Positions 128 through 17,861 of a DNA stretch of 34,363 bases are shown here, piece after piece. Source of the DNA: Nevskia sp. (GTDB lineage Bacteria > Pseudomonadota > Gammaproteobacteria > Nevskiales > Nevskiaceae); assembly GCF_021732705.1 (NCBI RefSeq), contig NZ_JAKFUM010000027.1, positions 1-34,363 on the forward strand, read 5' to 3'. Position 1 is the first letter of the stretch, and every line of letters begins with the position of its first letter. The notes beneath the pieces are model-generated. The model did no database searches, was not told where the DNA came from, and saw nothing but the letters and a program-made list of their open reading frames with translations. A program made the translations under genes and the position numbers.

Positions 128-217
128 GGGCTGGACTTCGCCGATCTGGGCGACGTCGTGCAACAGAACGTGGTCGAGCCGGTCGCCAATCTCGATGCCG
201 CCGAGGTCACGCCATGA
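128..217 (+). CDS. 3' end of an unidentified gene, cut by the element end
   Basis: An open frame runs from the element boundary to a TGA at 215-217. Its last residues read LDFADLGDVVQQNVVEPV and end AAEVTP. The TGA overlaps the ATG of the next gene (ATGA, 214-217), the usual sign of a translationally coupled operon, so this is very likely the C-terminus of a real gene. Reading further upstream into the element meets an in-frame TAA at 80-82. I do not recognise the family from 29 residues. Either the gene is disrupted by the element, or the rest lies across an assembly break. Confidence 0.55.
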   Translation, partial: GLDFADLGDVVQQNVVEPVANLDAAEVTP

Positions 218-1455: not shown

Positions 1456-2246
1456 GCGAACGCAACGTCGTCACCTATGCCAGCTATCTGAAGCTCGATC
1501 AGCTGCTGGCACTGCAGCAGCCGCTGTCCGATGGCCCGGAACACGACGAACTGCTGTTCATCACGATCCATCAGGTCTACGAGCTGTGGTTCCAGCAGAT
1601 GCTGCACGAGCTGACCGCGCTGCGTGCCCGCCTGATCGCCGGCGATACGGCGCCGGCGCTGGCCCACCTGCGCCGCGTGCTGACGATCCTGAAGACCCTG
1701 GTCAAGCAGGTCGACGTGCTCGAAACGATGACGCCGCTGTCGTTCAACGCGTTCCGGTCGCGGCTCGAAACCTCCAGCGGCTTCCAGAGCTGGCAGTTTC
1801 GGGCGCTCGAATTCCTGCTCGGCCAGAAGCGCCCATCGCTGATCCAGCAGCATCCGGAAGGCAGCCGCGCGCGGCGGGAACTGGAACAGCTACTGGCCGA
1901 ACCGTCGATCTATCAGGCTTTCCTGCACTATCTGCAGGCGATCGGTTGCGTGATGCCGGGCGACGCGCTGAACCGCGATCCAGCGGTGGCAACGATGGCC
2001 GATGTCGCCGTGCAGGCGGTGCTGGTCGAGGTCTACAAGACCCAGCCATTCGCCGCACAAGTCTGCGAGAACCTCGTCGACCTCGACGAAGGCATGCAGG
2101 AATGGCGCTACCGCCACCTGAAGATGGTCGAGCGCACCATCGGCGCGATGCACGGCACCGGCGGCTCCGCCGGCATCGCCTACCTGCGCGAAAGCCTGTT
2201 CAAGCCGCTGTTTCCGGACCTTTGGGCGATCCGGATGCAGTTGTAG
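1452..2246 (+). CDS. kynA: Tryptophan 2,3-dioxygenase
   Basis: A 264-residue heme enzyme that opens the indole ring of L-tryptophan with O2 to give N-formylkynurenine, the first step of the kynurenine pathway. Family landmarks are visible: HDELLFITIHQVYELWFQQ near the N-terminus (the distal heme-pocket histidine is in this region), the SSGFQS motif, and the C-terminal RYRHLKMVERTIGAMHGTGG with the proximal heme-ligand histidine and the substrate-loop glycines. The length fits bacterial TDOs. The ATG overlaps the MFS stop by four bases. No other kynurenine-pathway gene is in the window. The gene converges on the cytochrome locus; only a small 5-bp GC hairpin with a GCGA loop (2247-2260) lies in the gap. 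Confidence 0.96.
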   Translation: MSERNVVTYASYLKLDQLLALQQPLSDGPEHDELLFITIHQVYELWFQQMLHELTALRARLIAGDTAPALAHLRRVLTILKTLVKQVDVLETMTPLSFNAFRSRLETSSGFQSWQFRALEFLLGQKRPSLIQQHPEGSRARRELEQLLAEPSIYQAFLHYLQAIGCVMPGDALNRDPAVATMADVAVQAVLVEVYKTQPFAAQVCENLVDLDEGMQEWRYRHLKMVERTIGAMHGTGGSAGIAYLRESLFKPLFPDLWAIRMQL

Positions 2247-2306
2247 CGGCCGCGAGGCCGGCATCGACCATGGCACCGGATTCATCAGTGACGCGCGGGG
2301 GCGTGC

Positions 2307-5300
2307 TCAAGGCTTCACGTCGTCGCTGACGAACCACGGCGTGCCGTCGCGCTTCAGGTAGAAATCGCGCATCTCGGTCTGGTTGAACGGGCGCGAGCCG
2401 AGGCGGCCGAAGACGGCGATCTGGCCGCCGGTTTCGTCGACGGCGCGATCGCGATCGAGGCCGCGGGACAGGGCCAGTGCCGGTTGCGATGTGCGATGGC
2501 CGGCAATCCAGTGCGGTTTCGGGTCCGGCGAATAACCGTAGAACTTCGGCTGCGTGTCCGGTGCGGTGAGCTGCACGACCTGCAGGCCGTTTCGGCCGTC
2601 GGCGACGTAGGCGAACAGGCTGGCATTGGTCGAACCGACGACGACATCGCGCGCGTCGTTGATGCGGCCGTCGCCGTCGAACCGCTGGTACAGCTTCGGA
2701 TGTTCGGGGTTTTCGATATCGACGATGACGAGGCCTTCGCGGCCGGCGGCCACGTAGGCGAACGTGCGAGCGAGGTAGACGCGATGGCCGTCGCGCAGCG
2801 TGATCAGCGCGCCGCTGACGGCAACCGGCCGCGCGGGCTCGGTCACGTCGAAGGTTTCGAGGCCGCGCTCGGTGACGGCGAACAGGTAGCGGAACTGCAG
2901 CGCAGTCGAACGCAGTCCGGTCACCGGCACCACACTTTCGATGACCGGCGTCAGCGGGTCACGCAGGTCGATGGTGACGAGACCGGCATCGGCAGCAACA
3001 TACGCACGGCTGCCGGCCACGGTGATGTGCGAGGCGCCGCGCAACACGCCCTCCGGATTGAACGTCACGGCGCGGTCGAGGTAGTTGTTCAGCGGGTCGC
3101 CGTCGACCAGCGTGTCGACATTGACCAGCACCAGCCCTTCGACCCGATCCGCGATCAGCGCGTACGAGTAGATCGGTGCCAGCCGCTGTTCCTGATTGAC
3201 CGTCTGCATCATCGGCAACTGGTTGCGCAACGGGCTGACCGGTTGATTCGTCGGCAGCGCGACGAAGGCGGCATCGCGCGTGTCCACGCGCAGCCGCTGG
3301 CCGAGCGGCGATACCGGCCCGGTCGTGATCCGCTGCGAAAAGCCCTTGTTGCCGACGGTGGCGACGTCATACACCTGCAGACCTTTCGCGCCTTCCGCGG
3401 CGAACAGGTATTCGCCGCGCAATTGGAGCGCGTTGACCGGCACGCCGGCCGATTCTCGATGCGCGGTCGGCAGCATCCGGCCACGCGATTCGTGCGCGCG
3501 ATACCAGTCCGGGTAGGCGTAGCGGTGCAGGTAGCTGCCGATCACCGCCTGCGGCTCGTCCCATTCGGTGACCTGCACCGCAGTGACGCTGTCCGCCGTG
3601 CCGACGAACGCGTGATAGCCGATGAAGTTGACGAAGCCGGTGCCCAGACCGAGCAACTGGCCGATGACGGCGTTGTTGTCATTGGCCTGCGACAGGTGGC
3701 AATCGGAACAGGTCTTGGTCTCGGTGGTGCGTTCGGTATGCGCGTAATGCGGGTTGAACGCCTGCGACGAGAAGCCGCTGGACGAAATCGGCGGCTGCTG
3801 GGTGTAGATGCGCTCGCGGTTGGCGTTGGTCGACGACAGCACCAGCGCCGACGATGAGCGCACCGGTGCCACGCGATGGCCCTTGGCCGCGCCATGCTTG
3901 CCGAGGATGTACATGTCGTCGCGCGCGACCTGCGGGTTGTACGTCGCGTAATTGCGGGTTTCACCGCCTTCGAAATGGCCGCGCTCGGTTTTCCAGTTCG
4001 CCTGAATCGGCAAATGGCAGCCGGAACAGGAATTGGTCCACGAGGTGTGGCAGGACGCGCACACCATCTCGTCGTCCTGGTGCGCGCGCTGGTTTGGCGC
4101 GACGTCGCCGCCCCACTTGAACGCGGTCTTGTCGCGGCTCATCAGCTTGGCGCGGGCGGCCTTGGCGTTGTAGTGCGCGGAGCCCGGCGTCACCGAATCC
4201 TTGACCGTGTGAATCTGCCATTCGAGGCCGGGTGTCAGCGCGCTGCGCTGAAAGAGCTTGTCGCCGATCCACTCGAAGCGGCGGCGACCGTCCGGCGTGC
4301 GCAGTCTGGCCATGTCGGTGCCGCCGGGCGGTGCGGCAGGACCCGAGGTCTTCAGGCTCGGCTGGCGATCGACCGTGCCGTGGCAATCCTGACAGTCGAT
4401 CTCGATGGCCTGTGCGACTTCGCCGTACAGATGGCCATTGCCGTGCGTGTCCTGCGAGAAATGGCAGTCGACGCAGTGCATGCCCTTTTCGAGATGGATC
4501 GAGGCCAGATGGGTCGCCTTCTCGAACTTCTTCGGGTCGTCGTCGGCGACCTTCGCACCCTTGCCATCGAGCAGATTGCCCTTGCGGTCGCGCTTGTAGA
4601 TCGCGCGGAAGTTCCAGCCGTGGCCGTGGTAGTCGGCGAACTGCGTGTCCCTAGCCTGCGCATTCAGGTCCGAGACGTTGTCGAGGAATTTGCGGTCACC
4701 CCACAGGCCGCGCGTGGCCGCTTCTTCCGGGTTGCGCTGGTTGATCGCGCGGATCTCGGCATCGGTCGGGTATTTCTGCTCCTTCGGCCACATCAGCGGC
4801 GCGTCGGATTCGTAGTCCCACATGGTGTAGCCGAGGAAGCTGTTCACGAAGACGTTCGGCTGATGCAGATGGCAGACGATGCACTGCGCGCTCGGAATCG
4901 CGCGGGTGAACGCATGCTTCAGCGGATGGCCTTCCTCGGCCTTCGGGATCGTCGGGTCTGCGGTTTGGGTCTTGCCGGTGTGGCCGAACCGGGCATAGCC
5001 AGCGGAATGCTTTGGGTCGCGGTCGTTGGCGTAGACCACATGGCAGCTCGAACAGCCGCTGGATCGGTAATCGCCCGGCTGGTCGTTGGTGCCGAGAAAC
5101 CAGGTGAACGGGTCGTTCAGACGCGTCTTGTGCAGGTTCAGCACCGGTACCGAGATGCGGTTGCCGGTGCCCGGTCCGCGGCTCGACTGGTGCAGGTCCG
5201 GCCGGCCCGGTTCTTCGAGCCGCTGCAGGTTGCCGGCAACGCCGGGCAGGCCGGTTTCCGGAAACTGGCTGCCGATGTTGCGGCCGCCGGGTTCGAACAC

Positions 5301-6065
5301 GCGGAACACGTCGCCCGGCGTGGTGGTCTCCCAGGCCGGCAGCGGCAGCAGCTGACTCAGGATCCCCTTGGCCGCCATGTTGGCATTGACCGCGACCGGC
5401 CCGAGCAGCTTCGCCGGCTGGCCGTCGCGCGTGTAGGCCTCGCCGAACAGGTAGTGCTTGAACGGCACGACACCGTTGTTGTACGAAGCCCCGCCCCAGA
5501 GCATGGCGCCGGTCGCCATCAGGCTGCGCTCGGCGGCCTCGATGACCGGCAGGTGGCAGGCACCGCAGCTTTCGCGGGCAATCCGGTAGTCGCCGGGATT
5601 GATGAAGCGGATGAACGCCGGTGATTCCTTGTTCAGCAGGGTGAAGCTCTGCGGCGGATTGGCGCTGTGCGGGTAGTTCCAGGCCCCCGGCAGGCGCGGC
5701 TGGATGTGGGCCTGATCGAGCGCGGCGCGATAGCGGACATCACCGGGCTGCGCGCTGTCCGGCAGCCGGATCGACGCATCGCCGCCGTGGCAGTCGGTGC
5801 AGCCGAGGATCACAGCCGGGCTTTCGTGCATCGTCTTCTGATCGCTCGCCGTGTGGCAGCTGACGCAGCCTGCGCTTTTCCGCGCGGCGTCGGCGGCGGT
5901 CTGGAAGCGCGGGGCGGGCGGGGCGTCGGCGAGGGCGGGACGTGCAAACGGCAGGGCCATGCCGATCAGCAGCAGCACGGCCAACAGCGTCCGGCTTGCG
6001 CGCCTTCCTGCGCGTCGCCCAATCGGAGAACGACGAGCATCAGCAATCGCGGCGGCAGGGCGCAT
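2307..6065 (-). CDS. Secreted decaheme c-type cytochrome with LVIVD-repeat beta-propeller
   Basis: A 1252-residue protein. Residues 25-47 form a signal peptide ending in PALA; there is no lipobox cysteine. Ten CXXCH heme-binding motifs lie at about residues 67, 89, 167, 338, 395, 531, 558, 669, 680 and 786, in the N-terminal two thirds. The heme-free C-terminus (about 880-1200) carries at least six repeats of the LVIVD type (GLQVYDVAT, GLVTIDLRDP, GLETFDVTEP, GLVIVDIENP and others), which fold as a beta-propeller. Inference: periplasmic or cell-surface electron carrier, with the propeller docking to a partner or acceptor. It is the last gene of the five-gene operon, two bases after the beta-barrel gene, like the terminal cytochrome of porin-cytochrome conduits. 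The electron acceptor or donor is unknown. I know of no named homologue. Confidence 0.85.
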   Translation of the reverse strand: MRPAAAIADARRSPIGRRAGRRASRTLLAVLLLIGMALPFARPALADAPPAPRFQTAADAARKSAGCVSCHTASDQKTMHESPAVILGCTDCHGGDASIRLPDSAQPGDVRYRAALDQAHIQPRLPGAWNYPHSANPPQSFTLLNKESPAFIRFINPGDYRIARESCGACHLPVIEAAERSLMATGAMLWGGASYNNGVVPFKHYLFGEAYTRDGQPAKLLGPVAVNANMAAKGILSQLLPLPAWETTTPGDVFRVFEPGGRNIGSQFPETGLPGVAGNLQRLEEPGRPDLHQSSRGPGTGNRISVPVLNLHKTRLNDPFTWFLGTNDQPGDYRSSGCSSCHVVYANDRDPKHSAGYARFGHTGKTQTADPTIPKAEEGHPLKHAFTRAIPSAQCIVCHLHQPNVFVNSFLGYTMWDYESDAPLMWPKEQKYPTDAEIRAINQRNPEEAATRGLWGDRKFLDNVSDLNAQARDTQFADYHGHGWNFRAIYKRDRKGNLLDGKGAKVADDDPKKFEKATHLASIHLEKGMHCVDCHFSQDTHGNGHLYGEVAQAIEIDCQDCHGTVDRQPSLKTSGPAAPPGGTDMARLRTPDGRRRFEWIGDKLFQRSALTPGLEWQIHTVKDSVTPGSAHYNAKAARAKLMSRDKTAFKWGGDVAPNQRAHQDDEMVCASCHTSWTNSCSGCHLPIQANWKTERGHFEGGETRNYATYNPQVARDDMYILGKHGAAKGHRVAPVRSSSALVLSSTNANRERIYTQQPPISSSGFSSQAFNPHYAHTERTTETKTCSDCHLSQANDNNAVIGQLLGLGTGFVNFIGYHAFVGTADSVTAVQVTEWDEPQAVIGSYLHRYAYPDWYRAHESRGRMLPTAHRESAGVPVNALQLRGEYLFAAEGAKGLQVYDVATVGNKGFSQRITTGPVSPLGQRLRVDTRDAAFVALPTNQPVSPLRNQLPMMQTVNQEQRLAPIYSYALIADRVEGLVLVNVDTLVDGDPLNNYLDRAVTFNPEGVLRGASHITVAGSRAYVAADAGLVTIDLRDPLTPVIESVVPVTGLRSTALQFRYLFAVTERGLETFDVTEPARPVAVSGALITLRDGHRVYLARTFAYVAAGREGLVIVDIENPEHPKLYQRFDGDGRINDARDVVVGSTNASLFAYVADGRNGLQVVQLTAPDTQPKFYGYSPDPKPHWIAGHRTSQPALALSRGLDRDRAVDETGGQIAVFGRLGSRPFNQTEMRDFYLKRDGTPWFVSDDVKP

Positions 6066-6067
6066 GG

Positions 6068-7897
6068 TCAGAACGTGAAGATGAAATTGCCGAGCAGCGA
6101 GAACCCGGCGCTGTCGGCATACAGCGCACGCAGGCCGGCGCCCGGAATGAGCCAGGCCCCGGACATGCGCAGCACCACGTTCTGGTTGTTGTACGGGCGC
6201 CAGATCGCGGCGGCCGACAGGTCCCAGCCGATGTCATTCCCAATCGCGCCGCCGACCGGACCGCGGCTGGCGAGGCGCGACAGCACGGCGGTGCGATCGA
6301 AGCGCAGGTGGTTGATGTTGCTCGACAGGCGAACGGTCGGCGTCAGGTCGGCATCGGTTCCGATGCCGGCGAGGATCAGCCCGGGGTTCTCGAAGTTCGA
6401 CTGATCGCTGCCGCCCGGCCGCAGCCCGTTCAGCAGGCCGTTGCGCAGGCTCAGGCGCGTGTCGCGCGCGAACGCCAGCGACTGGCGCGACCAGAACGCG
6501 GTGTCGGCCCCGGCGAAGATCGGGTTTTCCTCCAGCGCGTCGTAGCCGCTGGCGGTGTCGTCATCCGGATCGCCGTCGCCGCTCTGATACAGCGCCGAAA
6601 AGCGGAAGCGCAGCCAGTTCACGTCGATCGAGGCTTCCGCCGCAGCGAAGCCGGCCAGCACCGTGCGGGCGCCCGGCGAGACGATGCCGCTGGACTGCGT
6701 GCCGGCCAGCAGGGTTGCCGACGCGGTCAGGTTGATCCGGCCGAAGTGCCCGTCACCGTTGGCGCCGAGGTAAGTCACTTCGTAACTGCGTGGCAGCAGG
6801 CCAGCTGCAAGGGGATCGCGCTCGCGATTGCGGTTGTGCGCGACGAGGCCTTGCACGATGAAGCCCGGCACTGGCCAATCCTGCCGGTAGAGATTGAACA
6901 GCACGATCTCGTCGGCGCGCGGCGCGACCCGGACATCGTTCAGCGCGCTGGCCGGGTCTTCGACCAGTCGCTTGATCGCGACGATGTTGTACTGCCAGCG
7001 ATTGCCGTCGCGGGTGCCGTACAGCCGCGCCGCCAGCTGACTGTCCTGAAACAGGAAGCCGCGGAAATCGCTGGACAGTGGCTGGATGCCGACACGCACC
7101 GCGTCGAAGTCGTAGCGCGGCGACACCGTGCGCAGGAAGCGGTCGGCATACAGCTCCTGCAGGCCGACGAAGCTGTCGAGATCAGTGCCGCGCGTGCGGG
7201 GAGCTGCGCCGGGCACGGTCAGATAGCTGGAATTGATGACCGGCGTCGCGCGCAGCGACCAGTCCGGCGGCTTGAACGTGGTGTTGCCCTGCTGGAAATC
7301 GACGCTGGCGATCAGGTTCTGCGACCAGAAGCGCTGGGTCAGGCTCGTCCCGTCGCGCAAGCTCGGCAGGCGCCGCAGCTCAACAATGGTGTTGTTCGTG
7401 GCCGCCAGCGACAGGAAGCGGAACTCGCCGGTCGGTGTGACCGACCACGGCTTGTCGCCCTTCAAGGTGTTCTGGTGATAGCTGTCGTACCGGCGCTCGT
7501 TGACCAGCCCGAGTTCATCGAGCAGACGCCAGCGGTCCGGGGACGGAATCGGCGCCTGCGCGGCGTAGACCTCCGGCGCGTGGGCATCGGGCGGCAGGCA
7601 GCCCGGTGTGGGCGTGGCTTCGCAGACCACGCGTTCTGCCGGTGGAATCGGTGCCGGCGCCACCGCGCGCAGACCGCTGCGGCGGTTGGCGTCCGGCAGG
7701 GCTTCCGGCGCCAGTATCGGCGGCGGCTTGTGGTCCGGACGGCGACGCAGTTCCGGCTCGGTCGGGTCGACCGGCACGATGCGCGGCGCCTCGGCTGGCG
7801 ACGGCGCTTCCGTCGCCTGGCATGGCAGCTGTGCCATCAGCAGCAGCGCCAGACCGATCGGCCGATGCGCGCGACAACGTTCCGGCACCGCGCTCAT
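6068..7897 (-). CDS. Predicted outer-membrane beta-barrel (porin-like) protein of the cytochrome operon
   Basis: 609 residues. The N-terminus (about 1-30) is a signal peptide (LALLLMAQLP). A proline-rich linker of about 90 residues follows, with a lone cysteine pair (CEATPTPGC). The rest shows alternating hydrophobic/aromatic strands typical of a barrel and ends in NFIFTF, a C-terminal phenylalanine as needed for BAM-dependent insertion. There is no heme motif. The ATG overlaps the stop of the FHA-cytochrome gene (ATGA, 7894-7897). The reading frame stays open far upstream, but that part is a shadow of the FHA gene. Inference: the outer-membrane sleeve of a porin-cytochrome conduit, analogous in role to MtrB or OmbB, though I see no sequence sign that it is homologous to them. 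Confidence 0.75.
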   Translation of the reverse strand: MSAVPERCRAHRPIGLALLLMAQLPCQATEAPSPAEAPRIVPVDPTEPELRRRPDHKPPPILAPEALPDANRRSGLRAVAPAPIPPAERVVCEATPTPGCLPPDAHAPEVYAAQAPIPSPDRWRLLDELGLVNERRYDSYHQNTLKGDKPWSVTPTGEFRFLSLAATNNTIVELRRLPSLRDGTSLTQRFWSQNLIASVDFQQGNTTFKPPDWSLRATPVINSSYLTVPGAAPRTRGTDLDSFVGLQELYADRFLRTVSPRYDFDAVRVGIQPLSSDFRGFLFQDSQLAARLYGTRDGNRWQYNIVAIKRLVEDPASALNDVRVAPRADEIVLFNLYRQDWPVPGFIVQGLVAHNRNRERDPLAAGLLPRSYEVTYLGANGDGHFGRINLTASATLLAGTQSSGIVSPGARTVLAGFAAAEASIDVNWLRFRFSALYQSGDGDPDDDTASGYDALEENPIFAGADTAFWSRQSLAFARDTRLSLRNGLLNGLRPGGSDQSNFENPGLILAGIGTDADLTPTVRLSSNINHLRFDRTAVLSRLASRGPVGGAIGNDIGWDLSAAAIWRPYNNQNVVLRMSGAWLIPGAGLRALYADSAGFSLLGNFIFTF

Positions 7898-9876
7898 CGA
7901 TGAAAGACGGAGGCGCGGCCTGCGCCGCCAGCGACCCCGGCCGCCGCATGCGGATCCGGCCCCGACGAGGCGGCAGCAGCCGGCGCGCGATCCTTCATCA
8001 GCGCGTTTTTGGCGGTATGGAAGCCGTGGCAGTCGGTGCAGACGGTCTGCACCCGCGCCGGACTGCCGCGGTCGCCGTGGCATTCGCGGCAGCGGCCGAT
8101 CGGCGGCGTCAGCACGTCGTCGCCGCTGCTGGACTGCGGCGCGGCGTGGCAGCTCGTGCAGTCGTCGGTGGCGTGCCGGCCATGCGGAAAGGGGCTGGCC
8201 TGCGTCAGCCGCTGCGTGGTCAGCGCCAGCGGCCGGATCCGCCACGGCGAGATCGTCATCGGCGCCAAGGTCAGCACCGCGCCGCGCGTGGCGAGATCGG
8301 GGCTGCGCGGCGGCGTCGGCATGTCCGGCGTCCGCTCGACCGTGTGGCAGTAGCGGCAGGTGCGCTTATCGAAGGTCTCGTCGATCACCAGCCGCGAGCG
8401 CCTGTCGGCCCAGGCGAGGGCGGCCATCGCATCGTTGCTGGCCAGCGCTTCGCCGGGACGGCGGCGCAGCTGCACGGCCGTCGGAGCGTCGGCTGCCATC
8501 ACGCCGCCGCCGAGGGCCACGCGGGCGTAGTAGTCGCGGATGGTGTCGACGACGGCGGCCTCGTTGCCGTGCGGCACGACTCTCGACGGATCATTCGGCT
8601 CGAAATCGAGCCGGTGGCATTCGGCGCAATGCGTTTCCATGCGGATCGGCCGGAAGCCGATGCCGGAGCCATCGGCCTCATGGCAGTTCTCGCACGTCAG
8701 CACCTGCGTGCCGTTCGGCCCCTTGATGCCGGCCTGCGCCACGTGCAGGTCATGCGGATACTTGAGATGGCTGTCCGATTGCAGCACCTTCGGGCTCGGC
8801 AAGGCGGCCGGGGCTTTCGGATCGATCGGCAGCGCCTCGGGATCGATCCAGCGGAACGCGGCCTTGATCGCGGGATCGGCGGCCTGCTGTTCCGCCGACA
8901 CGCGCCGCGCGATCTGCGGCGTGAATCCGGGATGACTGAACGAGAAGTTCGCCACCGGCGTCATCTTCGCGGTGCCGAAGCGCGTGCCGGGCTCGGCATG
9001 ACAATCGGTGCAGCGTTGATCCTGGCGCGCGGCCATGCCGGCGGCACCGCGATGCTCGTGATGGCAGTCAGTGCAGTGGGCCTCGCGGAACTCGGCCTGA
9101 TCGAGCTGCTCGCGGGCCTCGACATGGTGCGCGGTGGTCTCGTGGCACCGCAGGCAGCTGCGATCTTCCACCTGCACGAACGGCTGCTCGTGACACTGAC
9201 CGCAGTCGCGTTCGAACCACGCATGCGACGGGCTCGACGGGCCCGGCTGCCACTGGCGATCGTCCGGCCGCCACCGCACCAGCCGCGCCGCGAGCCCGGC
9301 TTCCGGCGGCACCGCGGCACCCGACAGTTGCCGCGCGGCGGCTTCGAGCTGCTCCGGGCTGCGCGGCGGCTGGCCATCGCCGAAGCGCAGCCATGCCGGC
9401 AGCAGCAGACTGATCAGCACGATGGCGGCAAACAGCCCGATCGAGACCACGCGACGGCTGTGGCCGATGCGGCCGAGCCGCTCGCGCAGCGCATCGAGCC
9501 GGCGCGCACGATCGTCCCGCGCGGTGCGCAGCTCCTGCACTTCGACCACCAGATCGATGCCGGCTTCGGCCGGAACCGCCTTCGCAGGGCGCAACAGGTG
9601 CAGGCGATGGCGACCGCAGTCGACCGTGCTGTCGAACGCGTGGACGCGGGTCTCGACCGTGCCATCGGCCCTCACGCGCAGGATCTCGACCTGTCGGGCG
9701 CCACGGCCATCGGTCACCGTGCGCAGTGACAGCGCCGTGGCCGGGATGCGCAGATCGGCCAGCACCAGATCCTGATCGGCGCCATGGCCGATGCGCAGGC
9801 GCTCGCCTTCGAACAGCGTCTCGGCCGGCGGCTTGCGCAGCGTCGGCGTGACCTGATGACGGATCAGCACCTTCAT
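7894..9876 (-). CDS. Membrane-anchored decaheme cytochrome with degenerate FHA domain
   Basis: 660 residues. Residues 1-115 resemble a forkhead-associated domain (RIGHGADQDLVLADLRI matches the RIGR...D.VL.D core), but the conserved SRxH phosphothreonine-binding residues are replaced (IPATALSL). One membrane helix follows at about 146-163 (GLFAAIVLISLLLPAWL). The C-terminal domain has ten CXXCH motifs at about residues 225, 241, 268, 289, 395, 417, 507, 573, 596 and 613, plus extra histidines that could be distal ligands. Topology by inference: FHA in the cytoplasm, hemes in the periplasm. The ATG at 9876 is chosen because a GGTGG lies just upstream; a GTG at 9885 is also in frame. The stop overlaps the barrel gene start. 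Probably passes electrons from the b-type protein toward the outer membrane. Confidence 0.82.
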   Translation of the reverse strand: MKVLIRHQVTPTLRKPPAETLFEGERLRIGHGADQDLVLADLRIPATALSLRTVTDGRGARQVEILRVRADGTVETRVHAFDSTVDCGRHRLHLLRPAKAVPAEAGIDLVVEVQELRTARDDRARRLDALRERLGRIGHSRRVVSIGLFAAIVLISLLLPAWLRFGDGQPPRSPEQLEAAARQLSGAAVPPEAGLAARLVRWRPDDRQWQPGPSSPSHAWFERDCGQCHEQPFVQVEDRSCLRCHETTAHHVEAREQLDQAEFREAHCTDCHHEHRGAAGMAARQDQRCTDCHAEPGTRFGTAKMTPVANFSFSHPGFTPQIARRVSAEQQAADPAIKAAFRWIDPEALPIDPKAPAALPSPKVLQSDSHLKYPHDLHVAQAGIKGPNGTQVLTCENCHEADGSGIGFRPIRMETHCAECHRLDFEPNDPSRVVPHGNEAAVVDTIRDYYARVALGGGVMAADAPTAVQLRRRPGEALASNDAMAALAWADRRSRLVIDETFDKRTCRYCHTVERTPDMPTPPRSPDLATRGAVLTLAPMTISPWRIRPLALTTQRLTQASPFPHGRHATDDCTSCHAAPQSSSGDDVLTPPIGRCRECHGDRGSPARVQTVCTDCHGFHTAKNALMKDRAPAAAASSGPDPHAAAGVAGGAGRASVFHR

Positions 9877-9922
9877 GCCGGCCACCCGCGCCGACAGGCG
9901 CTGTGTGCGACGACGGCGCGCA

Positions 9923-10858
9923 TCACCAGTACAGGAACACGGACACGATGTGCCCGGTCAGCGCCGCGAGCAGGGCGAGGGTCATCGGCACGTGCAGCAT
10001 CAGCCAGACGCGCATCCGTGCATGGAACGCGAGATCGCGGCCGAGCCGGGTCAGCAGGCTGTGCCGGCGTGCGAGCAGGTCGATCAGTTCGGCGACGCGG
10101 CGGGCGTCGTCGCCGGTGCGGCGGCCGGTGGCCAGCTGCGCGGTGATGCGTTCCAGCATGGTGCCGGCGCCGCCGTTGGCGGCGCGCACCTGCACGGCGC
10201 GGCCGCGGAGGTGATCGCGCATCCGGTTCGAGATCGCGGTGGCCTCGATGGCCCGCAGCACCAGCAGATGGGTTTCGCGATCGACCGCACTGGCGAGGCT
10301 CAGCACGCGCTCGTCGGCCTCATCGAGATCGATCAGCCACTGATCGCGGCTTTTGCCGGCACGATTGGCGGTGATCAACGCGGGATAGCGGCTGTACGCA
10401 ACCACGCCGTAGAGCCCGCTGAGCACCACCAGCAGCATCAGCAGCCAGGCCAGCGTGTGGATGTTCCAGCCGAATTCGAACGCCGAATGCAGCGTGCCGA
10501 CCAGCACCAGCGCCAGCCCGAGCCAGACATGGGCCGACGTCCAGCCACGCACGGTACCCAGCCGGCTGCTGTAGCGCCGGCGCCGGATGCCGAGCGCGCT
10601 CAAGGCCAGGATCAGCGCTGTGCCGATGCCGCCCAGCGTGTAGCCCAGCCAGGTGCCGCCGTTGGCACCGGCCACCGGCGCATGGCGCCAGTAGGCGAGG
10701 GTCGAGGCCGCGCACAGCAGCAGGGCCAGCTTCAGCCACCGGAAATCGGCATGGCCGAGAAAGCCGTCGTGAACGCCCCGGCTCAGACTCGGCGGCGTGC
10801 CGGCAGGCGCGGCCGCCACGCCCGACGGAGGGGACGGGCTCACGGTCGACGTGCTCAC
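9923..10858 (-). CDS. Di-heme b-type integral membrane protein (ferric-reductase-like histidine pattern)
   Basis: 311 residues with five predicted membrane segments (about 41-60, 70-91, 108-128, 134-156 and 283-310) and a charged loop of about 125 residues between segments 4 and 5. Segment 3 has H110 and H124, and segment 5 has H289 and H303; both pairs are H-X13-H. That is the two-heme ligation spacing known for ferric reductase/NADPH oxidase and cytochrome b helices. The start is GTG, overlapping the stop of the flavin-ferredoxin gene (GTGA, 10855-10858); no good alternative start keeps the full N-terminus. Inference: carries electrons from the cytoplasmic Fe-S/FAD partner, or from quinol, across the inner membrane to the FHA-decaheme cytochrome. 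The exact family is not certain. Confidence 0.72.
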   Translation of the reverse strand: MSTSTVSPSPPSGVAAAPAGTPPSLSRGVHDGFLGHADFRWLKLALLLCAASTLAYWRHAPVAGANGGTWLGYTLGGIGTALILALSALGIRRRRYSSRLGTVRGWTSAHVWLGLALVLVGTLHSAFEFGWNIHTLAWLLMLLVVLSGLYGVVAYSRYPALITANRAGKSRDQWLIDLDEADERVLSLASAVDRETHLLVLRAIEATAISNRMRDHLRGRAVQVRAANGGAGTMLERITAQLATGRRTGDDARRVAELIDLLARRHSLLTRLGRDLAFHARMRVWLMLHVPMTLALLAALTGHIVSVFLYW

Positions 10859-13254
10859 GTCAGGCTCGACACGCGCAGGAACGTTTCCGGGCTCGCCCGG
10901 ACGGCGGCACCGGTCGGGCAGGCGCGGACGCAGGCCGGGCCGCCGGACAGCGCCATGCACATGTCGCACTTCACCGCCTTCTTGTTGGCGGATGCCGCAA
11001 CTTTCGCAGGCGATTTCGCCGGCAGCCCCGGTTCGCGGCCGCCGAACATCATCCAGCGCCACAGGCTTGGCCGTTCGACGGCCGCTTCCGCCATCTGGAT
11101 CACGCCGTAAGGGCAATTGCGCTCGCAGTTGCCGCAGCCGATGCAGGCATCGGTGATGAACACTTCGCCTTTCGGATTGCGCCGGATCGCGTCCGGCGGG
11201 CAGTCCTTCATGCAGTGCGGGCTTTCGCAGTGCCGGCACGAGGTCGGCACGTGCAGGGTGCCGAAGCGGGCGCCAGCCTCGCGCTTCAGCCGCGAGACGC
11301 CGCCGTGCGTGTCGGCGCAGGCCTTTTCGCACTGATCGCAGCGCGTGCACAGCGATTCATCGATCAGCAGCGCATCGGTCGCTTCGCCGAGACCCTGCGC
11401 CATCAGGAAGCCGACCACCGGGCTGCGGTCGTGCTGTTGCGAGGCGGCATAGTTCGCCGAGATGCGCGCCTTGTAGATGTCGGTCAGCCGCTCGCGCAAC
11501 GCCGGTTCGGCCGCCAGCAGCGCCTTGAACGTGCGGCCGTCGATGCGGATCGTCTCGCCGGGCGCGGCGGCGTGGGCCGTGACGGTCTGCGCGGTTTCGC
11601 TGAGCAGCGCCAGACCGCCGACGAACTCGCCGACCGGCGCATAGCTCAAGGTGGCGTCATGGCCGTCGATCCGGCGCGAGACGGTGACCGAGCCCTTGCT
11701 GATGATGTGCAGGCAGTCCGCGGCATCGCCTTCGCGGAACAGGCAGTCGCCGGTCTGCCAGCGTTGGACGCTGGCGCTCTCGATCAACGGCTGGATCGAC
11801 GACAACGTCACCTGCGGCGCGAGGGTGGTCTGGATCATGCGGCGGAGGAAGGTCGACTCCACCGGCTGGCGGAAGCCCGGCACCTGCGCCATCAGTCGCA
11901 GCAGGGTGCGGCGCGGCGTCTCGATCAGCAGGCAGCCTTCCGCCGCACGGACGGTGGCGGCCCGGCGCCGGCCGGACAGCAGCGCCATTTCGCCGAAGAA
12001 CTCGCCGGCATTCAGCCGCGTGCGCTTGCCGCTGGCGTGCTCGGATTCGATCGCGCCGTCGACGATCAGATAGAAGCGGTCGTCATAGTCGTTGCGGGTG
12101 ATCACCACGGTGCCGGGCTTCGGCGCCAGCACCGCCGATTCCAGCAGGAACTCGCGAAGCTGCAGGCGGGTCAGCGCCGCCAGCAGCGGCAGACGCCGCC
12201 ACAAATGATCCAGACGGTCGTCGATGTCGTCGCCGGGCAGCAGGGCCAGCCGCTCGCGCAGCATCGGCTGATCGACCGGTTCGACGTTGACGCCGGCGAT
12301 GGTTTCGATCACGTCGAAACCCTGGTTCAGCGCCTGCTTGATCAGCGGGAAGCCGGCCAGCGCGCCGACGATGTACAGCCCCGGCACGCTCGATTCGTAC
12401 TGCGGGCTCAGGGTCGGCAAGGCGTTGCGGTCCGGCGTCGGAAACACCACGCCGAGCCGTTCGACGAACGCGCGCGGCGGCGTGGCACCGATGCGGGCGA
12501 TGATCCGGTCGCAGTCGATCACCACTTCGGAATGGCCCACGCCGAGCACCAGCCGCGCGGTCTGCGCGCTGGCGCCGGGCTCGATCCGCAGCACGCGGGC
12601 GCTGTAATGGCAGACCACCGAGCCATCGCGGATCGCCGCGACGATGCGGCCTTCGTTGGTGCTGTTGGCGAAGCGGAAGTCGTCGAACTCGTTGACGATG
12701 ACGACGCGGTTCTGTGCGGTCAGCGCCAGCGCGTTCTCGAGGCCGGCATTGCCGACGCCGACCACGACGATGGTTTCGCCGCTGTATTCGTCCGGATCAT
12801 CCAGTTGGTACTGCAGTGCCGGATGCTCGGCACCCGGGCAGGTGAGGCGGTTCAGGTTGCCCTGCAGACCAATCGCCAACACCACCTTGCGGGCGAGGAC
12901 CTGATCGCCGCCGGCAACGGTCAGCCGGAAGTCGTCGCCTTCGCGCGTGATCGCCTGCACCGCGGCATCGAGCCGCACCTGAACGCCGAGATCGGCGATG
13001 CGCGCGGACCAGCCATCGAGGATCGCTTCGCGGATGCCGTCCGCGAACGACAGCGGCGAGCGCAGCGGCAGGGATTTCGGCTCCGCCATCACCTGCTTGC
13101 CGCGCTGGTAGCGGTAGATGGTGTTCGACAGGCGGGGCTCGGCTTCGAGCAGCAGATGCGACAGACCGCGTTCGGCCGCACGGGCGGCGGCCGACAGGCC
13201 GGCAGGCCCCGAGCCGACGATCGCCACGTCCACCGACACGATGGCCCCCGCCAT
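10855..13254 (-). CDS. Fusion: FAD/NAD(P) oxidoreductase + two cyclic-nucleotide-binding domains + four-cluster ferredoxin
   Basis: 799 residues, cytoplasmic. Residues 6-325 are a two-Rossmann flavin reductase: GSGPAG for FAD near 14, GVGNAG for NAD(P) near 166 and GLYIVGALAG near 292. It lacks the CXXC of thioredoxin reductase. Residues about 365-475 form a cNMP-binding domain with an intact-looking phosphate cassette (GEFFGEMALLSGRRRAATV). Residues about 480-595 form a second, degenerate one (GEFVGGLALLSETAQTV, lacking Glu and Arg). Residues 636-785 hold four cysteine groups (CTRCDQCEKAC, CRHC...CMKDC, CIGCGNCERNC, CDMC...CVRAC), as in the four [4Fe-4S] electron-transfer subunits of the DmsB/HybA type. 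Predicted first gene of the operon: oxidises (or makes) NAD(P)H and exchanges electrons with the b-type protein. ATG 13254 follows GGGGG; GTG starts at 13272 and 13275 are alternatives. Confidence 0.88.
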   Translation of the reverse strand: MAGAIVSVDVAIVGSGPAGLSAAARAAERGLSHLLLEAEPRLSNTIYRYQRGKQVMAEPKSLPLRSPLSFADGIREAILDGWSARIADLGVQVRLDAAVQAITREGDDFRLTVAGGDQVLARKVVLAIGLQGNLNRLTCPGAEHPALQYQLDDPDEYSGETIVVVGVGNAGLENALALTAQNRVVIVNEFDDFRFANSTNEGRIVAAIRDGSVVCHYSARVLRIEPGASAQTARLVLGVGHSEVVIDCDRIIARIGATPPRAFVERLGVVFPTPDRNALPTLSPQYESSVPGLYIVGALAGFPLIKQALNQGFDVIETIAGVNVEPVDQPMLRERLALLPGDDIDDRLDHLWRRLPLLAALTRLQLREFLLESAVLAPKPGTVVITRNDYDDRFYLIVDGAIESEHASGKRTRLNAGEFFGEMALLSGRRRAATVRAAEGCLLIETPRRTLLRLMAQVPGFRQPVESTFLRRMIQTTLAPQVTLSSIQPLIESASVQRWQTGDCLFREGDAADCLHIISKGSVTVSRRIDGHDATLSYAPVGEFVGGLALLSETAQTVTAHAAAPGETIRIDGRTFKALLAAEPALRERLTDIYKARISANYAASQQHDRSPVVGFLMAQGLGEATDALLIDESLCTRCDQCEKACADTHGGVSRLKREAGARFGTLHVPTSCRHCESPHCMKDCPPDAIRRNPKGEVFITDACIGCGNCERNCPYGVIQMAEAAVERPSLWRWMMFGGREPGLPAKSPAKVAASANKKAVKCDMCMALSGGPACVRACPTGAAVRASPETFLRVSSLT

Positions 13255-13466
13255 CGTTGCAGCCCCCGTCACCACAGCCGTGCCCCGTCAGTTCTGTCGT
13301 TATGTTGGGAAGACTACGGAGTGGCCGAAGCATCGCCATTGATCGCGAATAAGACCGGATCGCACCGCAGCATATGTAATGTCATCGCGTTGCGAGAGGA
13401 TGGTCGAAGCGTCGGCGGCAAAGGCCGCGATCGGTGTTCGGGAACGGATTCGGGAGGCATGACACG
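13255..13466. promoter_or_regulatory. Divergent intergenic region of the cytochrome locus, with an FNR-like half site
   Basis: This 212-base gap must contain the start signals for both the minus-strand operon and the plus-strand cytochrome. A TTGAT-CGCG-AATAA at 13339-13352 keeps one perfect half of the FNR/ANR consensus (TTGAT-N4-ATCAA) and three of five bases in the other. A match of this quality can occur by chance. I see no convincing -35/-10 pair on either strand. Confidence 0.3.
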
Positions 13467-14807
13467 GTGAGGCAGCAGCAGGGTGCGAGGTCGTCAGGAT
13501 GGCGTTGCGGCGTCCGCGGCCTGCTGTGGCTGCTGTGCAGCCTGTCGGCGCGGCCGCTGCTTGCCGACGCGCCGGCCGGCGATCGTCACCTGGGCGTGGC
13601 GACCTGCGCCGGCAGTACCTGTCATGGCGCCACCCGGCCCTTCGCCGGCAGTGCCATCAGGCAGGACGAATACTTCATCTGGCAGCGACAGGATCCGCAT
13701 GCCGGCGCGCTGCGCAGCCTGCAGACGCCGGAGGCCGATGCCATCAGCCGCCGGCTCGGCATGGGGCCTGCCGCCAGCGCCGAAAACTGCCTGAGCTGTC
13801 ATGCGGAGAACGTGCCGGCAGCCCTGCGCGGCGAGCGCTTCGTCGCCGATGACGGCATCGGCTGCGAAAGCTGCCATGGCGCCTCGGAGCGCTGGATCGG
13901 CACGCACGTCAAGGGCTATCGCACCGACGACGAGCGCCTGGCCGCCGGCCTGCACGCCACGTGGAAACCCGCCGTGCGCGCCGAACTGTGCGCGAGCTGC
14001 CACGTCGGCGATGCCGATCACCGCATCGACCACCGGACGATGGCGGCCGGCCATCCGCCGCTGCTGTTCGAGCTGGACACATTCACGGCGCTGGAGCCGC
14101 CGCACTGGGATGTCGACGACGATTACCGGGCGCGCAAGGGTGACGCCGACGGCGCCCGCGACTGGGCGGTCGGGCAGGCGGCGGCGGCCCGGCGCGTGCT
14201 GGCGAAGCTGATGCGGACGCCGGTGGCCGGCGGCCTGATGCCGGAACTGTCGCTGTTCGACTGCAACGCCTGCCATCACGGCACCCGGGCCGGCCGAGCG
14301 AACGCCGAACGCAATGGCGGCATGCCGGTCGGTACGCCACCGCTGGCCGACACGCCGCTGGTGATGCTGCAGCCGTGGCTGGATCTGATCGATCCGGCGA
14401 TGGCCGCCGAATGGCGTCGGCACTGGACGGCGCTGCACGCGGCGGCCAGCGATTCCCGCGAGGCACTGCAGCGCGAAGCCGACGCGATGACCCGACTGAT
14501 CGACCGGCGGATCGTGCCGCTGGCCGAGCGCAGCCGCCTGTCGCCGTTGCAGCTGCGGCAACTGGTCGCGGCGATCGTCACGGCCGCCGGCGACCGTCAT
14601 CGCGGCGATTTCAGCCATGCCGAGCACACGGCGATGGCCGTGTCGGTGCTGGCCACCGCCTGGTCCGAGCGACAGCGGACGCCGGCGCCGACCGCGTTGA
14701 AACCCGCGCTCGATGCGGTCTATCGGGAAGTGCAGGACCGCGACCGTTTCAGCCCCGCACGCTGGACGGACTCGCTGAAAGCCGTCATCTCGGCGCTCGG
14801 CGGCTGA
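13467..14807 (+). CDS. Multiheme c-type cytochrome, cytochrome c554-like
   Basis: 446 residues with a signal peptide ending in LLADA (about residues 15-35). Heme sites are one CX4CH (CAGSTCH, residue 47) and four CXXCH (CLSCH 108, CESCH 133, CASCH 175, CNACHH 266). The spacing and the GxxCESCHG segment resemble the cytochrome c554 family of periplasmic tetraheme carriers. The last 170 residues have no heme motif and look helical. Start: GTG 13467, preceded by GGGAGG eight bases upstream; an upstream in-frame GTG (13434) has no such site and would lengthen the signal peptide. It is transcribed divergently from the five-gene operon and probably belongs to the same electron route as a soluble periplasmic shuttle. 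No hydroxylamine oxidoreductase is nearby, so a nitrification role is not supported. Confidence 0.8.
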   Translation: MRQQQGARSSGWRCGVRGLLWLLCSLSARPLLADAPAGDRHLGVATCAGSTCHGATRPFAGSAIRQDEYFIWQRQDPHAGALRSLQTPEADAISRRLGMGPAASAENCLSCHAENVPAALRGERFVADDGIGCESCHGASERWIGTHVKGYRTDDERLAAGLHATWKPAVRAELCASCHVGDADHRIDHRTMAAGHPPLLFELDTFTALEPPHWDVDDDYRARKGDADGARDWAVGQAAAARRVLAKLMRTPVAGGLMPELSLFDCNACHHGTRAGRANAERNGGMPVGTPPLADTPLVMLQPWLDLIDPAMAAEWRRHWTALHAAASDSREALQREADAMTRLIDRRIVPLAERSRLSPLQLRQLVAAIVTAAGDRHRGDFSHAEHTAMAVSVLATAWSERQRTPAPTALKPALDAVYREVQDRDRFSPARWTDSLKAVISALGG

Positions 14808-15082
14808 CCCTTTCCCCCGGAAAGGCCTCGCGGTCCGATTCGCGAGACCGCAAATGCGGGCCTTCCCGGGCCGGAAGTGTTAAAATCGCGTGACCAACTG
14901 CCGGTCCGCCCGCTGCCATTCCGCCGTGATCCGGTGACGGTGGCGAGCAGCTGCCGACAGACCCCGAGCCGTGCAATAACAGCCGCTGTCCATGCGGCGC
15001 TCATGATTCGCAACTCCGTGGGTTCTGGGCCGTGTCCGCACGGCCCCGTCGCCTGGCGTGCGAATCCTCGAACGAAACCAGA
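14808..15082. promoter_or_regulatory. gyrA upstream region
   Basis: A 275-base gap. Just after the cytochrome stop there is a short inverted repeat, CCTTTC/GAAAGG (14809-14825), followed by CTCGCG/CGCGAG (14827-14846), without a T tract; it could act as a weak terminator. A TAAAAT at 14881-14886 is a candidate -10 element, but I see no matching -35. The remaining 190 bases may be a long gyrA leader. No gene seen. Confidence 0.3.
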
Positions 15083-17842
15083 ATGAGCGAATTCGCCAAA
15101 GAAGTCCTTTTCGTCAACCTCGAAGACGAAATGCGCCGTTCGTACCTCGATTACGCGATGAGCGTGATCGTCGGCCGCGCCCTCCCGGACGCCCGCGACG
15201 GCCTGAAGCCGGTTCATCGCCGCTCGCTGTACGCGATGAACGACCAGGGCAACCACTACAACAAGCCGTTCCGCAAGTCGGCGCGCATCGTCGGTGACGT
15301 GATGGGTAAATACCATCCGCACGGCGACTCCGCGATCTACGACACCATCGTCCGCATGGCGCAGCCGTTCAGCTTGCGTTACATGCTGGTCGACGGGCAG
15401 GGCAATTTCGGCTCGGTCGACGGCGACCGCCCGGCGGCGATGCGCTACACCGAAGTGCGCATGTCGAAGATCGCGATGGAACTGGTCTCCGACATCGACA
15501 AGGACACCGTCGATTTCGTGCCGAACTACGACGGTTCCGAGCAGGAACCGGCGGTGCTGCCGACGCGCATCCCGAACCTGCTGGTCAACGGTTCCAGCGG
15601 CATCGCGGTCGGCATGGCCACGAACATCCCGCCGCACAACCTGTCGGAAGTGATCGACGGCTGCGTGGCGCTGATCGACAACCCGGACATGGATCTGGAC
15701 GCGCTGATGAAGCTGATTCCGGCGCCGGATTTCCCGACCGCCGGGCTGATTCTCGACGCTGCCGGCCTGAAGGAAGCGTACGAGACCGGCCGCGGCCGCA
15801 TCGTGCTGCGGGCCCGCACGCACTTCGAGGATTTCGAGCGCGGCGGCGACCGCCAGGCGATCGTCACCACCGAGCTGCCGTACCAAGTCAACAAGGCGCG
15901 GCTGATCGAGAAGATCGCCGAGCTGGTCAAGGAAAAGAAGATCGAAGGCATCACCGATCTGCGTGACGAGTCCGACAAGGACGGCATGCGCATGGTGATC
16001 GAGCTGCGCCGCGGCGAGAACGCCGAAGTCGTGCTCAACAACCTGTACCAGCAGACCCAGCTGCAGACCGTGTTCGGCATCAACATGGTCGCGCTCGACG
16101 ACGGCCAGCCGAAGACGCTCGGCCTGAAGCCGCTGCTCGAAATCTTCCTGCGTCATCGCCGCGAAGTGGTGACGCGCCGCACGCAGTACCTGCTGAACAA
16201 GGCGCGCGACCGCGCCCACATCCTCGAAGGCCTGTCGGTGGCACTCGCCAACATCGACGAAGTCATCGAGCTGATCCGCCGCAGCCCGAACGCGGCGGAA
16301 GCCAAGGCCGGCCTGATGTCGCGCGACTGGCGCGCCGGGCAGGTGGCCGACATGCTGTCCCGCGCCGGGGCCGACGCCTCGCGTCCGCTCGGCCTGGATG
16401 GCCAGTTCGGCATGCAGGCGGTGGCGGGAGCCGCACCCGGGCCAGAGAGCCTGTATCGCCTGTCGGACCTTCAGGCGCAGGCCATTCTCGACCTTCGCCT
16501 CCAGCGCCTCACCGGTCTGGAGCAGGACAAGATCCACGACGAGTACCGCGCGATCCTCGAAGCGATCCTCGACTACATGGACATCCTCGCGTCCGAACCG
16601 CGCCTGCTCGGCGTGATTCGCGGCGAACTGCTGGAAGTGAAGGACAACTTCGGCGACGAGCGCCGCACCGAGATCACCGACTTTGCGCTGAACCTCAATC
16701 GCGAAGACCTGATCACGCCGCAGGACATGGTCGTGACGCTGTCGAAGGCCGGCTATGTCAAGGCTCAGCCGCTCGCCGAGTATCAGGTGCAGAAGCGCGG
16801 TGGCCGTGGCCGCACGGCGGCCGCGACCAAGGAAGACGATTACGTCAACGGCCTGTGGGTCGCGCATTCGCACGACTGGCTGCTGTGCTTCAGCTCGCGC
16901 GGCCGCATGTACTGGCTGCGCGTGTTCGAGCTGCCGGCCGGCGGTTCGGGTTCCAAGGGCAAGCCGTTCGTCAACCTGCTGCCGCTGGAAGACGGCGAGC
17001 GCATCAGCGTGGCGCTGCCGGTCAAGCGCTTCGATACCGGTCAGTTCGTGTTCATGGCCACCCGCGGCGGCACCGTCAAGAAGACGCCGCTGGAAGATTT
17101 CTCGCGTCCACGCACGGCCGGCATCATCGCGGTCGACCTGCGCGTCGACGACGAACTGGTCGGCGTGGTGCTGACCTCCGGCGACAGCGACGTGCTGCTG
17201 TTCTCCGATGCCGGCCGCGTCATCCGCTTCAACGAGCGCGACGTCCGTGCGATGGGCCGCGGCGCCACCGGCGTGCGCGGCATGCGTCTGGTCAAGGCCG
17301 GCGGGGGCGAAGAAGACGATTCGGCCGCGGCCGACAGCGATGCCGAAGGCGATGCATCCGCCGAACCGGTCGCCAGCGGCGCGCAGGTGATCGCGCTGCT
17401 GGTCGCACAGGACGGCGACATCATGACCGTCTCCGAATTCGGCTACGGCAAGCGCACGCCGATCAGCGGCTTCCCGCTGCGAGGTCGCGGCGGTCAGGGC
17501 GTGATCGCGCAGGCACTGTCGGACAAGACCGGCAAGCTGCTCGGCGCGCTCGATGTCAACGACCGCCACGAGCTGATGCTGATCTCCGACGCCGGCCATC
17601 TGATCCGCGTGAAAGCCAGCGATATCAAGCAGTTGGGCCGCAACACGCAGGGCATCCGCGTGGCACGTCCGAGCGAGGGCGATCGTCTGGTCGGTCTCGA
17701 CCGGATCGAGCCGGAGCCGGAAGTCGCGATCGATACCGCACTCGATGGCCTGCCGCCGGTCGCGGCGCCGGATGCCGCGGTCGACGACGGCACGCAGGAT
17801 GGCGGCCCGGACGCAACGCCCGACGACGACGCCAACCGTTGA
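15083..17842 (+). CDS. gyrA: DNA gyrase subunit A
   Basis: 919 residues. This is the breakage-reunion subunit of the topoisomerase that introduces negative supercoils, working as A2B2 with GyrB. Numbering matches E. coli at the start: Tyr122 (AAMRYTE) is the catalytic tyrosine, and the quinolone-resistance region reads [12 protein letters not shown] with Ser83 and Asp87 both wild type. The GyrA box QKRGGRG is present at about residue 571. The C-terminal pinwheel contains an acidic insert of about 28 residues (about 741-768, [20 protein letters not shown]) and an acidic tail. Start: ATG before SEFAKEVLF; an open frame extends 17 codons further upstream without family similarity. The 70-base gap to serC holds a GC-rich hairpin. 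Confidence 0.98.
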
Positions 17843-17861
17843 TCGCTGGCTTCAGCAGAAA

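Follow-up and report, generated by a model that had tools for sequence, protein, structure and literature searches.

The six-gene locus and its products

The stretch of DNA studied here, referred to as the window, is the entire 34,363-base contig NZ_JAKFUM010000027.1 of Nevskia sp. (assembly GCF_021732705.1), whose genome is 4.53 Mb in size. A survey of open reading frames (ORFs) found six genes of a putative electron-transfer system intact at or inside positions 2307-14807, where a preliminary description of this DNA had placed them. On the minus strand, reading from 13275 to 2307, the genes are ordered FAD, IMP, PERI, BAR, and EXT, and C554 is divergently oriented on the plus strand. All parts of the linked redox chain named in that description are present, i.e. 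an NAD(P)H-type flavin/iron-sulfur (Fe-S) protein, a membrane protein carrying two motifs of the di-heme b type, a barrel, and two decaheme cytochromes. Its estimate of about 25 c-type hemes also agrees with our count, in that EXT and PERI each contain 10 CXXCH motifs and C554 contains four CXXCH motifs and one CX4CH motif (10+10+5, or 25 in total). When all six frames of the window were scanned for C-X(2-4)-CH, 26 motifs were recovered, 25 of which lie inside these three genes; such a concentration is not due to chance.

FAD (10855..13275, minus strand) encodes an 806-amino-acid (aa) flavoprotein, in which a Pfam search (E up to 0.01 for all proteins of the window) found a Pyr_redox domain (residues 16-319), two cyclic-nucleotide-binding (cNMP-binding) domains (residues ~386-464 and 490-600), and a 4Fe-4S domain (PF13247, E 2.4e-11). 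Sixteen cysteines at residues 643-786, forming the sets for four [4Fe-4S] clusters, are invariant in 68 of 68 sequences (the window copy and 67 relatives, the set used for all residue counts in FAD). In this set, the first cNMP pocket keeps its Glu in 66 sequences and its Arg in 66, the second its Glu in 61 and its Arg in 67, and an NADPH-type Arg follows the second Rossmann strand in 66. The roles of these residues are assumed by analogy with PKA/CRP and thioredoxin reductase. IMP (9923..10858, minus strand) encodes a membrane protein of 311 aa in which WX3HX13H occurs twice (His110/124 and His289/303), alongside an SGLYG sequence, and which would carry two b-hemes. Both WX3HX13H motifs recur in 73 of 73 complete copies among its relatives, and SGxxG in 68 of the 73. 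A sequence search of PDB with IMP yielded six matches, all with E values of 0.26 or worse.

PERI (7894..9876, minus strand) encodes a 660-aa protein with an N-terminus of the forkhead-associated (FHA) type, a single transmembrane-like stretch at about residues 145-168 (identified by eye), and a decaheme domain. Pfam returned no FHA match and a sub-threshold match to the YscD cytoplasmic domain. A PERI profile searched against PDB matched GarA-type chains (E 2.3e-8), which are FHA domains, and a cytochrome c family protein (3ov0, E 1.4e-15). A PERI copy from a congener of the host (L109, positions 4176-5672) contains just seven heme motifs and is apparently cut short. C554 (13434..14807, plus strand) encodes a 457-aa protein of the cytochrome c554 family (PF13435), with a signal peptide recognized by eye.

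BAR (6068..7897, minus strand) encodes a 609-aa protein which, in an AlphaFold2 (AF2) model, forms a beta-barrel of 18 long strands (residues 159-608) preceded by about 147 residues of low confidence. Neither BAR nor IMP has a Pfam match, and a PDB sequence search with BAR gave a single match (E 0.19). EXT (2307..6065, minus strand) encodes a 1252-aa decaheme cytochrome whose 10 CXXCH motifs are spread over residues 67-790 and are followed by a C-terminal beta-propeller (LVIVD, residues ~830-1230); Pfam reports a multiheme and an LVIVD domain. As judged by eye, EXT has a Sec-type signal and lacks a lipobox cysteine. Its AF2 model has a mean pLDDT of 52.7, so that the heme half is unusable and the propeller alone is confident. 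The propeller model matches propeller folds in PDB, and a PDB search with the EXT sequence returned nothing. The propeller part of the EXT profile also matches an 11,725-aa open frame, i.e. a giant protein, in another genome (G430:C1:1349095-1349529, E 9.7e-12).

The longest-ORF starts proved wrong for three genes, and were corrected to 7897 for BAR, near 10858 for IMP, and near 9876 for PERI. With these coordinates, FAD/IMP and PERI/BAR each overlap by 4 bases, and BAR and EXT are separated by 2 bases. Such tight packing suggests that FAD-IMP-PERI-BAR-EXT probably form one operon. The FAD-C554 divergent intergenic region (13276..13433) is a probable control region; it contains no CRP or Fur match, and its best FNR-like match has two mismatches. 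The module adjoins a housekeeping block, with gyrA-, serC-, pheA-, hisC-, tyrA-, aroA-, cmk-, rpsA-, and purF-like genes (named by eye from the ORFs) at positions 15032-31980.

Linkage, co-occurrence, and spread of the module

Homologues scattered without conserved linkage had been named in the preliminary description as the outcome that would speak against a single system. The opposite was found among 108 loci. Some regions are represented twice in this count, having been taken from both of two sources (L041/L111 and L054/L131 at the least), and L029-L108 are the best 80 of 269 stretches by EXT similarity in a pattern scan of a collection of named genomes with the window protein. BAR and EXT are adjacent on one strand in all 101 loci that hold both, FAD-IMP-PERI occur in this order in 69 of 71 loci, and all six genes lie on one stretch in 57 of the 108; Erythrobacter cryptus DSM 12079, Solimonas sp. 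SE-A11, and Tahibacter soli are examples of cultured hosts with the complete module on a single stretch. Heme counts are nearly fixed in complete copies, with 10 in EXT (98 of 99), 10 in PERI (73 of 74), and 4+1 in C554 (77 of 77). Moreover, a seventh gene is usual: a protein of an HbpS-like family is encoded in 91 of 99 loci that have BAR, EXT, and either PERI or C554, some of the eight others being short stretches (e.g. L057 and L096). This protein is lipoprotein-like (lipobox identified by eye), about 650-670 aa long, and contains HbpS-like domains (PF03928); its gene lies in the PERI-BAR interval in L041 and in the C554-BAR interval in L091. The window has no such gene at the module, and the only PF03928 protein over the cut-off in the host genome is a single-domain protein of 172 aa encoded elsewhere. 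The preliminary description missed the cNMP-binding and FHA-type parts, as well as this HbpS-like gene of most related loci.

EXT and IMP also co-occur across genomes. In 398 genomes of the phylum, IMP scored above 320 bits in 12 and full-length EXT was found in 11, and all 11 EXT genomes have IMP (Fisher 1.4e-20, with a cut-off set after the scores were seen and without correction for kinship). In the twelfth genome with IMP above 320 bits (G424, locus L153), the contig ends 0.3 kb past BAR. At a cut-off of 200 bits for IMP, 11 genomes have both genes, four have IMP only (G424, G426, G562, and G451), and none has EXT only. In four further genomes, EXT matches cover just a short part of the protein (E 1e-11 to 4e-15); weak IMP matches occur in 14. 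Both genes are retained even where they are unlinked: G802 has them on different contigs, and in G755 and G621 a single contig carries both at a distance of more than 600 kb. In three loci (L139, L140, and L141), FAD, IMP, and PERI are present, with FAD and IMP fused in the latter two, and neither BAR nor EXT lies in the stretch; a genome search found no EXT match in these genomes. An inner half of this kind may work alone or with other partners.

Relatives of EXT among the best 80 stretches come from Alpha- and Gammaproteobacteria, e.g. Erythrobacter, Sphingomonas, Phenylobacterium, Hyphomonas, Solimonas (a member of the Nevskiaceae in the NCBI taxonomy), Tahibacter, and Woeseiaceae, and several hosts are named strains. 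Within the class, 13 of 369 genomes, including that of the host, contain EXT, and FAD (at E 1e-40) was found in 17 of 61 genomes (the host and its relatives) and 9 of 21 genera. A quick EXT tree of 89 rows forms largely family-wise groups with many open forks, and the window is nested among Nevskiales rows. Together with the patchy presence of FAD, this tree makes inheritance look mostly vertical, with losses. Thus, the six genes form a real, linked, ordered, and widespread redox module, which is conserved across many soil and water bacteria.

Conservation pattern and a proposed reductant-export line

For the 23 loci in which each of the six genes is complete, pairwise identity averaged 66% for EXT, 54% for BAR, 53% for FAD, 44% for IMP, 42% for C554, and 34% for PERI, and EXT was the most conserved protein in 95% of the 253 pairs; since these loci were chosen by EXT similarity, the value for EXT is inflated. 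Ten genomes chosen by IMP instead gave 64.7% for EXT, 62.7% for BAR, 62.2% for HbpS, 60.6% for FAD, 51.0% for IMP, 37.1% for C554, and 37.0% for PERI, as measured on the best BLAST segment only, with some partial ORFs, and with C554 represented by 4 of the ten genomes and HbpS by 9. In a control set of Mtr loci, the order was reversed, with 53.2% for MtrA-like proteins, 38.8% for MtrC, and 34.7% for MtrB-like proteins (6, 6, and 5 loci out of 8, one pair being congeneric, and MtrA and MtrB being chosen by heme count and adjacency rather than by a family model). At the level of sequence identity, conservation in the module is inverted relative to Mtr loci, at about 65% for EXT versus about 35% for the periplasmic cytochrome PERI. 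The outer unit is the constrained part, as would be expected of a specific enzyme complex. This inversion suggests a simple sequence test, "enzyme" versus "wire", for uncharacterized porin-cytochrome clusters.

On this basis, the module may be a cyclic-nucleotide-regulated NAD(P)H reductant-export line that ends in a specific outer-membrane decaheme enzyme, EXT, a reading we consider evenly poised between right and wrong. From the observed gene content, linkage, motifs, co-occurrence, and conservation, we infer the following order. NAD(P)H would reduce the FAD domain of the cytoplasmic FAD protein, whose four [4Fe-4S] clusters would hand the electrons on to the b-heme pair of IMP. After crossing the inner membrane, the electrons would arrive at the PERI decaheme domain. 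C554 would be the probable carrier from PERI to the outer-membrane unit BAR-EXT (usually with the HbpS-like lipoprotein). EXT would be the working end, a decaheme reductase that uses its propeller for binding and acts on a specific substrate at the outer membrane, for which Fe(III)/Mn(IV) in chelated or mineral form, quinones or humics, and O2 species come into question. Electrons would travel outward, as both the potential of NAD(P)H and the membrane potential favor this direction. A chain run in reverse, in which EXT oxidizes an external donor and feeds NAD(P)H or the quinone pool, is very unlikely. To be sure, multiheme chains can run either way, and PCC4, a related candidate cluster, was found in genomes of Fe(II) oxidizers and modeled for uptake in the available text of PMC5566968. 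Reduction of NAD(P)+ from an external donor via b-hemes would nonetheless be uphill, regulated export would be a better fit to the cNMP- and FHA-type domains found at the NAD(P)H end, and the named hosts are mostly not known to be lithotrophs.

Gating of FAD by a cyclic nucleotide is suggested by the retained cNMP pockets together with the neighboring genes. A cyclase-type ORF cluster was found in 17 of the 108 loci (two members tested were CHASE2 plus class III cyclase proteins) and a phosphodiesterase-type cluster in 22 of the 108 (two members tested were calcineurin-like phosphoesterases), counts made without a chance control and drawn mostly from related Alphaproteobacteria. The tested phosphodiesterase-type members matched NF050112 (the SpdA cyclic-nucleotide phosphodiesterase) with E values of 2.6e-38 and 6.2e-35, below the cut-off of that model. 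Beside the module of Erythrobacter cryptus (L091, positions 148-4388) lie genes for a CHAT-domain protein, a CHASE2 cyclase, and a protein of 245 aa that matches no Pfam family. Upstream stretches of FAD (68) and C554 (81), which overlap in divergent loci, were scanned for control boxes. FNR boxes occurred in 1 and 0 of them, respectively (1.4 and 2.2 in shuffled sequences), Fur boxes in 5 and 3 (1.9 and 1.8), and CRP-like boxes in 11 and 12 (5.5 and 4.6); the latter two are weak excesses, of which no use was made.

The module could also be a generic outward conduit like MtrCAB or PCC4, serving Fe(III)/Mn(IV), humics, or an electrode, with EXT as a terminal wire instead of a specific enzyme. 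A barrel, the decaheme PERI, and a second decaheme protein in adjacent genes are as such a conduit would have them, and the inner half has its homologues in PCC4-like clusters, PCC4 itself being interpreted as a conduit of this kind in the available text of PMC5566968. Moreover, EXT and C554 resemble the Pfam MtrC/MtrF domain PF22113, though at scores below threshold (25.2 and 22.3 bits; cut-off 30). The inverted conservation speaks against a conduit, not only because Mtr loci show the reverse order, but also because in Geobacter conduits the extracellular parts vary and the periplasmic ones are conserved, according to the available text of PMC6148476. So do the predicted 18-strand, AlgE-like form of the barrel and the lifestyle of the named hosts, which are mostly aerobic heterotrophs (Erythrobacter, Sphingomonas, Solimonas, and Tahibacter, among others). 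A generic conduit is therefore a possible, somewhat unlikely reading, and a specific enzyme is the more likely role of EXT.

Several observations weigh against a surface enzyme powered by regulated export. In the IMP-chosen set, EXT, BAR, and HbpS are nearly equal in identity (64.7%, 62.7%, and 62.2%); EXT does not stand out by itself, and its conservation could stem from assembly of the complex instead of from catalysis. Sixteen conserved histidines outside the heme motifs of EXT suffice for bis-His ligation of all ten hemes, and no open active-site heme is therefore indicated. IMP scores 220-230 bits in three genomes without EXT (G426, G562, and G451). The FAD protein of the window is itself atypical, with Glu in place of the NADPH-type Arg and with Gly and Gln in the second cNMP pocket; it may use NADH, or have an impaired input or reduced regulation. 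These losses, and the missing HbpS gene at the module, make the window copy atypical among its relatives.

Finally, the cell surface, put forward in the preliminary description as the end of the chain, is a putative location of EXT. GspD, the type II secretin, scores over its cut-off in 15 of 19 module genomes; in the other four (G536, G759, G666, and G500, each rated 100% complete), secretin matches reach just 96-130 bits against a cut-off of 351, so that EXT there would use another export route or be periplasmic. The corresponding alternative for the module as a whole is an NAD(P)H-driven reductase confined to the periplasm, with EXT not exported further and BAR serving solely to let its substrate through. 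We regard it as unlikely, given the 15 genomes with GspD, the possibility of other export routes or of anchoring via BAR, and the fact that fold similarity shows no function.

In its widest form, the reductant-export reading would make the module a machine by which ordinary aerobic Alpha- and Gammaproteobacteria export NAD(P)H electrons under the gating of a second messenger, powering one specific and highly conserved extracellular decaheme-propeller enzyme. Such a machine would do in bacteria, across two membranes, what NADPH oxidase or the ferric reductase of the plasma membrane does elsewhere. This we offer tentatively, and with some doubt. The discussion of multiheme conduits centers on metal respirers and iron oxidizers; if the export line is real, many cultured bacteria own an envelope-spanning connection, controlled by cyclic nucleotides, between their NAD(P)H pool and the outer membrane.

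Relation to known systems

MtrCAB and MtoAB share with the module a decaheme-barrel-decaheme layout and, in the case of MtrCAB, differ from it in the order of conservation. Curated family models agree with the earlier judgment that these are not MtrA or MtrC. Against the MtrA model (DmsE-family TIGR03508), PERI gave no match and C554 scored 19.5 bits (cut-off 192.2), and against MtrC/OmcA (TIGR03507), EXT gave no match at 0.01 and C554 scored 16 bits (cut-off 209.3). A search of the host genome for MtrC-family proteins (TIGR03507) found no match. In another genome (G226), the module coexists with an MtrC-family protein that scores over the cut-off, so the two need not be redundant. MtrB is a barrel of 26 strands, whereas the BAR model has 18 strands and a fold like that of the alginate exporter AlgE and the OprD-Occ channels. 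Identity to these proteins is 8-18% in structural alignments, and the BAR gene, unlike theirs, lies in a cytochrome context. MtrB is not among the 50 entries listed for the BAR fold, which proves nothing.

ExtM of the Geobacter ext cluster resembles EXT over a short heme segment (NCBIfam NF040943, E 1.8e-20). Membership was rejected at 72.8 bits against a cut-off of 800, and ExtM is described as a 12-heme, 68-kDa protein in the available text of PMC5877670, whereas EXT has 10 hemes and a propeller. No OmaB/OmcB family name occurs among the Pfam and NCBIfam matches listed, and no comparison was aimed at OmbB-OmaB-OmcB. A "Forkhead-associated protein" with 10 CXXCH motifs, reported without interpretation from 27 of 87 Gallionellaceae iron oxidizers in the available text of PMC10734462, may by its description belong to the PERI family.

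Two candidate clusters described in 2017, PCC3 and PCC4, have IMP motifs identical to those found here (available text of PMC5566968). PCC3 also combines a porin with a periplasmic and an extracellular multiheme cytochrome (MHC) in one cluster. Its periplasmic MHC has 21-27 hemes (PMC10734462; median 21 in PMC5566968) and its extracellular MHC 10 to 85, as far as the available texts go, whereas PERI and EXT have 10 each and the module lacks a very large periplasmic MHC. In two PCC3-like loci (L143 and L150), 24- and 21-heme proteins adjoin IMP and the loci are matched by the PERI and IMP profiles, which suggests one superfamily of inner halves.

PCC4 was compared through PCC4-like loci (L142, L144-L146, and L148), which were recovered by the IMP profile and matched by gene content, with no named PCC4 genome among them. 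The IMP of PCC4 is described with five transmembrane helices, two WX3HX13H motifs, and SGXXG, and these motifs are all present in the window IMP; a PF13247 Fe-S gene adjoins IMP in subgroup II of PCC4, just as FAD overlaps the start of IMP here; and a c554-type cytochrome, a barrel gene, and a decaheme protein are shared. In L148, the gene order is a 5-heme protein, a barrel-like protein, an FAD/NAD/2Fe-2S protein, a 4-heme protein of the c554 type, a cNMP/4Fe-4S protein, IMP, and a 10-heme protein. The module profiles detect this locus at 52 bits for C554, 199 for FAD, 58 for IMP, and 65 for PERI, and hhalign aligns PERI with its decaheme protein at a probability of 98.6% (E 5.9e-16). By sequence, the inner half is homologous to PCC4-like clusters. 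The flavin input differs: L148 has a separate FAD_binding_6/NAD_binding_1/Fer2 protein without Pyr_redox, whereas Pyr_redox is here fused to the cNMP/Fe-S part. That one homologous core is fed through two unlike NAD(P)H-type flavin domains argues for a functional link to pyridine nucleotides. An FHA-type domain on PERI is a further difference.

The outer half (BAR, EXT, and usually HbpS) has no homology to PCC4-like clusters detectable in these sequence comparisons. In hhalign, the BAR profile gave no alignment to one PCC4-like porin (that of L148, E 0.38), barrels being fast to diverge, and EXT aligned with the 5-heme protein over one heme pair only (probability 24.8). The MHCs of PCC4 are described as having 4, 5, and 10 hemes, with no extracellular MHC, in the available text of PMC5566968; the window has 4+1 in C554, 10 in PERI, and 10 in EXT, with no 5-heme protein of the PCC4 type. 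The module adds instead the decaheme-propeller protein EXT, at a presumed outer location, and usually the HbpS lipoprotein. No paper describing the whole gene set was found in the open-license PMC literature. The system, previously called possibly undescribed, thus appears to be so in its outer half and as a whole set, and not in its inner half. Relative to these known systems, the new features are an NAD(P)H-input domain that differs from the PCC4-like one, conserved cNMP pockets with cyclase- and phosphodiesterase-type neighbors, and an inverted order of conservation.

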